From: an uncultured Oscillospiraceae bacterium
GTDB taxonomy: Bacteria; Bacillota; Clostridia; Oscillospirales; Oscillospiraceae
Direction: 5' to 3'
DNA: 64,000 nucleotides
Assembly (NCBI GenBank): GCA_947599925.1
Contig: CANQFT010000006.1
Location: 24,482-88,481, forward strand
Shown here: positions 8,369 to 11,704 of the stretch, piece after piece
Position numbering within the stretch: the stretch's first letter is position 1
Layout: each line of letters begins with the position of its first letter
Notes under the pieces: model-generated
The model's database searches: none
What the model saw: the letters and a program-made list of their open reading frames with translations, nothing else
What the model was told of the DNA's origin: nothing
Made by a program: the position numbers and the translations under genes

Positions 8369-8622
8369 AACCAGGCCCCCTTTTTCTATTGATGATACAA
8401 GGTATATTATACCAACTATTTCCCCGCTTGAAAAGAGGAAATTTCGACAAAGGCCGCCAGGGGCCAAAAATGCGCCCAGGCCCCTGACCCACCGGGGGCG
8501 GGCCGCGGGCCGTTCTTGACGGCCTGGGGCCCTTGTGGTAAAATACGTTAAATAGCTATTATACTGGTTTTGATGCCGTATCAGTAGAAAATTTGCCAAC
8601 GGCGGAAAGGGGGCGGCCTTTG

Positions 8623-9399
8623 ATGTCCCAAGAGGAATACCGGTCCCGGCAGGAGAGCGCGGACGGCGTCATCGAAGGGCGCAACGCCGTCTTGGAGGCC
8701 CTGCGGGCCGGGGCCAGCATCGACAAGCTGTATCTGGCCAAGGGCGATGTGGACGCGGCCCTGCGGCACCTGGCCTCCACGGCCCGGAGCAAGGGCGTGG
8801 TGGTGGTGGAGTGCGACCGGCGCAAGCTGGACGCCATGAGCCTCACCCACGCCCACCAAGGGGTCATCGCCGTCACCGCCGTGCGGGAATACGCCGACGT
8901 GGACGACATTCTGGACGTGGCCAGGGAGAAGGGGGAGGCCCCGCTGGTCATCGTCTGCGACGAGCTCAGCGACCCCCACAACCTGGGCGCGGTCATCCGC
9001 ACCGCCGAGTGCGCCGGGGCCCACGGGGTCATCATCCCCAAGCGCCGCAGCGCGGGCCTCACCGCTGTGGTGGCCAAGACCTCGGCGGGCGCGGTGAGCT
9101 ACGTGCCCGTAGCCCGCGTGCCCAACCTGACGGCCTGTCTGAAGGACTTGAAAGCCAGGGGCCTGTGGGTCTACGGCACCGCCATGGACGGGGAGAGCCC
9201 GCTCTACCAGGCCGATCTGACCGGCCCCGCCGCCATTGTCATCGGCAGTGAGGGGGACGGCATGAGCCGCCTTGTGTCCGAGACCTGCGATATGCGGCTG
9301 TCCATCCCCATGAGAGGCCGCCTTAACTCCTTGAACGCCAGCGCCGCCGCCGCCATCGTCATCTTTGAGGCGGTGCGCCAGCGGCTGGGGAGGGGGTGA
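8623..9399 (+). CDS. rlmB: 23S rRNA (guanosine-2'-O)-methyltransferase RlmB / TrmH family
   Basis: EGRNAVLEAL..., VCDELSDPHNLGAVIRTAECAGAHGVIIPKRRSAGL, IVIGSEGDGMSRL, NSLNASAAAAIVIFE. Confidence 0.92.
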   Translation: MSQEEYRSRQESADGVIEGRNAVLEALRAGASIDKLYLAKGDVDAALRHLASTARSKGVVVVECDRRKLDAMSLTHAHQGVIAVTAVREYADVDDILDVAREKGEAPLVIVCDELSDPHNLGAVIRTAECAGAHGVIIPKRRSAGLTAVVAKTSAGAVSYVPVARVPNLTACLKDLKARGLWVYGTAMDGESPLYQADLTGPAAIVIGSEGDGMSRLVSETCDMRLSIPMRGRLNSLNASAAAAIVIFEAVRQRLGRG

Positions 9400-9406
9400 G
9401 CGCGCC

Positions 9407-11704
9407 GTGAGCAAGACGCCCAAGGGCCCGGAGGGGCCCGATCTGGAGGAGATCCTGAACGAGTTCGCGCCCCTGGACGGGCCCGCGCCGGAGGAGGCCA
9501 AGGCGCCGGAAAAGACGGAGGGGCCTGTTGTATCGGAAGTCCCGGAGGGGCCTGTCGCGCCGGAGGCGTCGGAGCCGGAAGCGCCCGACGGACCGGAGGA
9601 GCGGGGAGAGACGGTGGAGGAGCCCACCCTGCGGCTCTTTGACCGGGCGGGCAAGCTGGTGAAGGAGCGGCCGCTGGACACCGCCCGCGACAGGGCGGAG
9701 ACCCCGCCGGAGGGCGGGGTCGCGGAGACGGAGGACGGGCCCCAGGACGACCAGGGCGGGGACCTGCCGCCGGAGACGCCGGACCGGGAGAAAAAAACGC
9801 CCTGGTGGAAGCGGAAAAGCCAGCCGGTCCACCTCAGCGAGAAGGTCATCCAACTGCCGGAGGAGGACGGCTCCCTCACCGGGCGCATCGGCCGCCTCAT
9901 TGAAAAGGGGGACCGCTACGCCCAGGGGATGTTCGCCGGGGACGCGCCGGAGGACCCGGAACAGGCCCAGCGGGAGCGGTTGCTGCCCGGCGTGGACTGG
10001 GAGCGGGAGCCCACCCATGTGCCGCCGCGGAGACGCCGCCGTATGCTCCGCCGGCCCCAGCCCGACCTGCCGCCGGGCAAGCTGGCCGCGCGGTACAAAA
10101 AGGGGCTGGGATTTCTCCACACCCGTTGTTTTCTGTCGGCCCTGTGGCTGCTGCCCCAGCTCTATCTGATGCTCTTTTCCAGCCTGGGCCTGCCCATGTT
10201 CCCTCTGCTGGCGGAGGACCGGACGCTGTGTCTGCAGGCGTCGGCCCTGGCCATGGGGGTCAGCGGTCTGCTGGCCCTGGACGTGCTGGCCCACGGGATC
10301 CTCTGCCTGGCCCGGCTGCGGCTGGAGAGTGAGACGCTGGTCCTCTTCGCCCTGGTCGCCGCCGCCGGGGACGCGCTGACCATGCCGGTCCTGGGAGACC
10401 GGGACGGGGCCATGCCCTACTGCGCCATCGTGTCTATGACGCTGTTTTTCGCTTTGTGGGGGCGGCTTTTGAAGCGGCGGGGCCTGTGGCACGCCTGCAA
10501 GACCGCCGCCTCCGCCGCCGAGCCGTATCTGGTGACGCTGGACGAGCGGATGTGGGACGGCAGGGACGCCTTTGTGAAGTGGTCGGGCCGGGCCGAGGGC
10601 TACGGCAGCCAGGTCCAGGAGACCGAGGGGGTACAGCGGACCTACCACATCGCCGCGCCGGTGATCTTGCTGGGCTCGGCGCTGCTGGCCCTGATCGCCT
10701 CGGTGGGCCGGGCCCATCCGGAGACCTTCTTCTGGTGTCTGTCGGCCTGTCTGACCGCCGGGTGCGGCTTCACCGCGTTTTTGAGCTTTTCCCTGCCCTA
10801 CGCCACCCTCTCCCAGCGGCTGAGCAAGATCGGCGCCGCGCTGGGCGGTTGGGACGGTCTGCGCTGGCGGGGCCGGGGCCAGGGCGTGGTGCTGACTGAC
10901 ACCGACCTCTTTCCGCCGGGCAGCGTGACCCTCAACGGCATCAAACTCACGGGGAACGTCTCCCTGGAAAACGCCGTGGCCTATACCGCCACGCTGATCC
11001 AAAAGACCGGCAGCGGCATGGAAAAGCCCTTTGCCGATCTGCTGAAGACCAAGGGCGGGCTCTACCGCCGGGTAGACCGCGTGGTGTTCCACGAAGGGGG
11101 CGTCACCGGGGAGATCGGCGGCCAGCACGTGGCGGTGGGCTCCGGGGCGTTCATGGAGCTGATGCGGGTGCCTGTGGCCCCGGGGCTCAGGGTGAAGGGC
11201 GCGGTGTTTTGCGCCGTGGACGGCTACCTCTGCGCCATCTTCGTGTTGCACTACGCCCTCCACACCTCCATCCGTCCCGCCCTGCACACCCTCATCTCCA
11301 ACGGCCTGGACCCCATCCTGGCCACAAGGGACCTTCTGATCGTCCCCCATATGCTCCACCAGCGCTTCAAACTCCCCGCCCACCGCATGGAGTTCCCCAG
11401 CCTGGACCGCCGCCGGGAGCTCTCCTCCAAGCGGCAGGAACACGAGGAGAACCTCTCCGCCGTCCTCTGCCGGGAAGGTCTGGGGCCCTATGCCGACGCG
11501 GTGGTGGGCTCGCGGCGGCTGCTGGGCGCGGTGCGCGCGGGGCTGTTTTTTGACCTGCTGGGCGCGGCGGTGGGGCTGGCCCTGTCCTTCTACCTCTGCT
11601 TGATCCAGGCCTTCGCCTCGCTGTCGGCGGGGGCGCTGTTGGTCTTTTTGCTGTTGTGGCTGGTGCCCTCGGCGCTGGTGGCCAACTGGGTCAACCGGTA
11701 TTGA
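9407..11704 (+). CDS. Membrane protein resembling a P-type ATPase core without catalytic motifs (candidate pseudoenzyme), with long acidic/Pro-rich N-terminal tail
   Basis: GTG start at 9407; layout TM...FSLPYATLSQRLSKIGAALGGWDGLRWRG...VVLTDTDLFPPGSV...AVGSGAFMEL...AVDGYLCAIFVLHYALHTSIRPALHTLISNGLDPILATRD... parallels the P-type ATPase M4-P-N-P region, but DKTGT, TGDN and GDGxND are absent. Confidence 0.6.
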   Translation: MSKTPKGPEGPDLEEILNEFAPLDGPAPEEAKAPEKTEGPVVSEVPEGPVAPEASEPEAPDGPEERGETVEEPTLRLFDRAGKLVKERPLDTARDRAETPPEGGVAETEDGPQDDQGGDLPPETPDREKKTPWWKRKSQPVHLSEKVIQLPEEDGSLTGRIGRLIEKGDRYAQGMFAGDAPEDPEQAQRERLLPGVDWEREPTHVPPRRRRRMLRRPQPDLPPGKLAARYKKGLGFLHTRCFLSALWLLPQLYLMLFSSLGLPMFPLLAEDRTLCLQASALAMGVSGLLALDVLAHGILCLARLRLESETLVLFALVAAAGDALTMPVLGDRDGAMPYCAIVSMTLFFALWGRLLKRRGLWHACKTAASAAEPYLVTLDERMWDGRDAFVKWSGRAEGYGSQVQETEGVQRTYHIAAPVILLGSALLALIASVGRAHPETFFWCLSACLTAGCGFTAFLSFSLPYATLSQRLSKIGAALGGWDGLRWRGRGQGVVLTDTDLFPPGSVTLNGIKLTGNVSLENAVAYTATLIQKTGSGMEKPFADLLKTKGGLYRRVDRVVFHEGGVTGEIGGQHVAVGSGAFMELMRVPVAPGLRVKGAVFCAVDGYLCAIFVLHYALHTSIRPALHTLISNGLDPILATRDLLIVPHMLHQRFKLPAHRMEFPSLDRRRELSSKRQEHEENLSAVLCREGLGPYADAVVGSRRLLGAVRAGLFFDLLGAAVGLALSFYLCLIQAFASLSAGALLVFLLLWLVPSALVANWVNRY

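Follow-up and report, generated by a model that had tools for sequence, protein, structure and literature searches.

A CopA-related membrane protein lacking the P-type ATPase catalytic motifs is encoded and maintained next to rlmB

P-type ATPases are among the best-studied pumps, and their catalytic aspartate is usually treated as a defining feature. In pseudoenzymes such as pseudokinases, catalytic residues are lost while the fold and the gene are conserved. A P-type ATPase body has been recruited beyond simple ion pumping in the apicomplexan guanylyl cyclase alpha, whose P4-ATPase domain retains the catalytic Asp of DKTGT and is apparently active (PMC7858053). A 2023 review expects further prokaryotic P-type families (PMC10654040). 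Our literature search found no description of a prokaryotic pseudo-P-type ATPase; many subscription papers lay outside its scope, and a prior description is possible.

The window, a 64,000-nucleotide stretch of DNA from an uncultured Oscillospiraceae bacterium, contains an open reading frame whose product shares with the P1B-1 copper ATPases (CopA; LpCopA, 3rfu) eight transmembrane segments, the M/A/P/N order and the P/N-domain body. Unlike these pumps, it has no DKTGT, TGES, GDGxND, CPC cysteines or HP histidine; it also has no heavy-metal-binding domain, bears in its place an acidic tail that includes a linear motif, and is restricted to one order. It differs from guanylyl cyclase alpha in having lost the catalytic Asp in DKTGT. 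The likeness to pseudoenzymes in general lies in the loss of catalytic residues from a conserved gene, with the fold in our case predicted from sequence. The features of the locus are as follows.

8593-9399, plus strand: rlmB, 23S rRNA Gm2251 methyltransferase, the constant upstream neighbour (TIGR00186, E 9e-72)
9407-11704, plus strand: pseudo-P1B-type ATPase, 765 aa, GTG start (open reading frame and full-length homology to CopA-type ATPases)
9407-10078, plus strand: acidic, Pro-rich N-terminal tail, residues 1-224, presumably disordered (composition)
9440-9466, plus strand: conserved linear motif DLEEILNEF, residues 12-20 (family form (F/Y)SLEDILAE(F/Y))
10130-10462, plus strand: four predicted transmembrane segments equivalent to MA, MB, M1 and M2 of P1B ATPases (family-averaged hydropathy and profile alignment)
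10463-10654, plus strand: A-domain remnant with the TGES part deleted (profile alignment and hydropathy)
10655-10804, plus strand: predicted transmembrane segments M3 and M4; the helix-breaking Pro of M4 (P464) is kept, the CPC cysteines are not
10895-10921, plus strand: TDTDLFPPG, residues 497-505, replacing DKTGTLTxG (own-family and order-wide alignments)
10949-11206, plus strand: N-domain-like region, with G565 and G578 nearly invariant and the His of SEHP lost (alignments)
11324-11338, plus strand: TRDLL, residues 640-644, replacing TGDN; TRDFN or TCDPN in the family (alignments)
11450-11458, plus strand: deletion point of the CopA GDGxND segment (GDGIND opposite gaps in the profile alignment)
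11543-11677, plus strand: predicted C-terminal transmembrane pair M5 and M6, residues 713-735 and 740-757 (profile alignment and hydropathy)

The frame is intact from the GTG at 9407 to the stop at 11704, as the first-pass annotation had reported. This start is supported by the relative L032, which begins homologously to the window protein (VDKTPKGPG...). The rlmB stop lies at 9399, leaving 7 bases to the open reading frame, and a putative prolyl-tRNA synthetase-like gene, named from its sequence, lies 85 bases after it. Family-averaged hydropathy predicted eight transmembrane segments at the positions expected for P1B ATPases, the first four corresponding to residues 242-260, 275-294, 312-327 and 338-352.

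Searched alone, the window protein matched no Pfam or NCBIfam model and gave only a weak hit to LpCopA (3rfu, E 0.0019), which placed T497 under the phosphorylated Asp D426. Alignments of family and order orthologues (A1, 52 sequences; A2, 69 sequences) were far more informative. Using hhalign, A2 matched a set of 25 ordinary P1B ATPases with a probability of 99.96% (E 5e-39, 534 columns); scores decreased from copper types (310) to zinc/cadmium types (176) and P2/P3 types (61), and a column-shuffled control scored 18 with a probability of 0.2%. The A2 profile retrieved LpCopA from the PDB with an E-value of 7e-39, and 35 of the 69 members individually matched the NCBIfam CopA model (best E 7e-21). 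In a phylogenetic tree the pseudo-ATPase family was monophyletic (0.93) and was placed next to P1B (1.0), with a stem length of 1.26, although its exact position may reflect long-branch attraction. AlphaFold models, built with two sequences only (window and L032), had pLDDT values of 34-35 for both the 541-aa core and the 233-aa P/N part, a low confidence due to the lack of alignment depth, and were not used. The P1B-like descent proposed earlier was borne out by the profile searches: judged from these comparisons, the product is certainly a full-length relative of P1B (CopA-type) ATPases, and a P-type fold can be predicted for it.

The alignments revealed how much of the catalytic machinery is missing. 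DKTGT, TGES and GDGxND were absent from their expected positions in the window protein and in all 69 aligned homologues, in agreement with the earlier claim that all three catalytic motifs had been lost. The peptides quoted in that annotation, among them TDTDLFPPG replacing DKTGTLTxG, were found where they had been placed. Among 66 sequences of the own family, Thr predominates at the phospho-Asp column (497), and the following positions are highly conserved (D498 in 62, D500 in 65, F502 in 64 and P503 in all 66). Across the order, P503 is present in 61/69, D498 in 50/69 and D500 in 48/69 sequences. In other families of the order this column frequently holds an Asp, but what comes after it is unrelated to DKTGT (for example VDAKDLFPKG); the replacement can be written (D)xDLFPxG. 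An Asp is retained in this column in 14/69 members, making the loss of chemistry less certain for those members. DKT strings occurring in seven members were rejected as retained motifs since they lie elsewhere in the protein.

The GDGxND segment had been noted as absent, a claim that can be refined: the segment is deleted rather than mutated, GDGIND of CopA lying opposite gaps. CREGLG, considered as a mutated GDGxND, was dropped because CREGLGPYADAV aligns with the downstream KSDLRDVSTAI. The TGES part of CopA likewise faces gaps; the M2-M3 loop, or A domain, spans about 65 aa compared with about 140 aa in CopA, so that about half of this domain is deleted. TGDN reads TRD in the window, as described earlier, and its general replacement is TxDxN, with D642 kept in 61/66 own-family and 62/69 order sequences. 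None of the 69 aligned cores contains a [C/T/S/A]PC metal site, whereas the M4 proline P464 is retained in 63/66 own-family and 58/69 order sequences. SEHP was found in 0/69 N domains and G578 in 69/69. The first-pass annotation, which gave no function, thus understated the loss, which is order-wide and extends to TGES, the CPC cysteines and the HP histidine. As read from these alignments, the known residues for phosphorylation, dephosphorylation, Mg/ATP handling and metal ligation are all lost, and the protein would be biochemically dead, forming neither E1P nor E2P and pumping nothing.

The gene was detected in 97 of the 98 good genomes of the family and, as a single copy, in 183 of the 185 good genomes of the order (presumably Oscillospirales), a count in which some of the weakest matches are ordinary ATPases. 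Apparent absences in f91 and G727 and a weak match in G549 were rejected, since divergent members were found directly after rlmB. This was the case in G543, G563, G727 and G549; three of these copies scored 187-300 bits, and the G549 copy is split into two frames. The contigs of G561 and G579 end right after rlmB. Five near-complete genomes (G132, G613, G482, G591 and G648) have no rlmB match and no clear pseudo-ATPase member, a pattern that would fit an assembly gap or joint loss. Among 399 genomes of the phylum, members of the order scored 360-641 bits over the full length and nearly all others 127 bits or less over residues 188-470; the two outside-order matches examined in full were ordinary DKTGT ATPases. 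This suggests that, outside the order, the phylum matches correspond to ordinary P1B ATPases only.

The core of L032 is identical to that from a genome of the window's genus. Within this genus, dN/dS (NG86) was 0.28-0.49 for the core and 0.28-0.37 for rlmB in the same genomes, both sets of values being probably too high, since dS is compressed in genes rich in G+C. Purifying selection maintains the gene. The earlier proposal of a maintained pseudoenzyme rather than decay therefore stands: no examined homologue has DKTGT at the motif position or GDGxND, which excludes local decay.

We consider it probable that a copy of a copper-type P1B ATPase gave up its catalytic cycle close to the root of the order and took on a new role as a membrane protein without catalysis. 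Such a protein would act by binding, as a scaffold or receptor, with the membrane part and what is left of the P/N domain serving as an anchor or ligand-sensing receptor. Four ordinary P-type ATPases are encoded in the same genome, so that the pumping role is covered without it.

Several other explanations were weighed against this proposal. The loss of catalytic motifs could in principle mark an ordinary heavy-metal ATPase gene decaying into a pseudogene; this reading, to which we attach a negligible probability, is refuted by frames that remain intact in almost every genome, by a replacement motif found across the order, by dN/dS values under 1 and by single-copy retention. A role specific to sporulation, a process widespread in the phylum outside the order, would agree with the presence of SpoIVA in 173 of the 185 good genomes, the order consisting mostly of spore-formers. 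It is very unlikely, because the gene persists in genomes that gave no match to SpoIVA (for example G560, G571, G583, G596, G603, G607, G624 and G628); moreover, phylum genomes outside the order do not have it despite sporulating widely.

Two further possibilities would give the protein an activity, and we regard both as improbable. HAD phosphatases use a DxD motif, and the pseudo-ATPase is distantly related to them and carries in its own family a DxD at the motif I loop (D498 62/66, D500 65/66). TDTDLFP could then supply a nucleophile and a general acid as in HAD motif I, making the protein a membrane phosphatase or phosphotransferase with new chemistry. However, the DxD is not fixed order-wide, conservation dropping to the 50/69 and 48/69 given above, the motif III acids are deleted in the profile alignment, the motif II Thr is not fixed, and D498 aligns with the Lys of DKTGT, so that matching it to the Asp requires shifting the alignment by one residue. 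The P1B transmembrane path might instead operate without ATP, as a passive transporter, a channel or a metal/ligand sensor; this would make use of the eight retained transmembrane segments, the M4 proline and the Asp residues conserved in membrane segments of the own family (D292 and D322). The CPC cysteines are nonetheless gone in all aligned members, and order-wide D292 and D322 are found in only 28/69 and 21/69 sequences. Retention of a pump body stripped of its chemistry in nearly every member of this major order of gut bacteria would represent a new example of a re-used transporter and provide the order with a marker gene. It also calls for caution in annotation, as the half of the members matching CopA models could be labelled metal pumps.

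If the maintained pseudo-ATPase acts by binding, its tail would most likely use the (F/Y)SLEDILAEF motif to dock a partner in the cytosol. An acidic, Pro-rich tail of about 200 aa had been described from the window and was recovered as residues 1-224. Family tails average 23% D+E and 11% P, with a median length of about 240 aa and a maximum of about 900 aa. The pattern (F/Y)(S/T)L(E/D)(D/S)ILAE(F/Y) occurred in 79 of 102 tails against 0.145 expected from shuffles, a measure of excess and not an independent test because the pattern was derived from the same data. Across 1.45 Mb of DNA searched, the strict form was limited to family members. The idea that other proteins share the motif as a docking signal was rejected, the only own-genome match outside the family being an unrelated TetR-like regulator. 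The f95 members L134 and L135 (about 553 aa) have no tail at all, which means that the function cannot reside in the tail alone; the conserved motif is nevertheless a direct handle for finding a partner. In L115 (f3, 1415 aa) the tail contains imperfect tandem repeats of about 55-60 aa (QETQILQPI...EKKSFWSKWFS).

Linkage to rlmB, suggested as a check by the first-pass annotation, proved constant: rlmB immediately precedes the gene, in the same orientation, in 81 of 81 loci (mostly within tens of bases), as it does in the four divergent cases. This arrangement suggests that the two genes are co-transcribed, and it gives a hint of a membrane-located role in translation or in the maturation of ribosomes; it may also be merely an inherited operon order. 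A bolder proposal, which we consider unlikely, is that this founding prokaryotic pseudo-ATPase family, fixed at the order's root and locked to rlmB, forms a membrane hub whose tail motif binds a cytosolic partner and which would thereby couple translation or the maturation of ribosomes to the membrane, a function that might be essential. Immediately downstream, 38 of the 81 loci carry an EF-G-like GTPase gene in the same orientation (for example L132:7831-9948), and the remaining neighbours are variable. In f91 (L214, L215 and L216), the rlmB frame measures 408-515 aa and has a long charged N-terminal extension.
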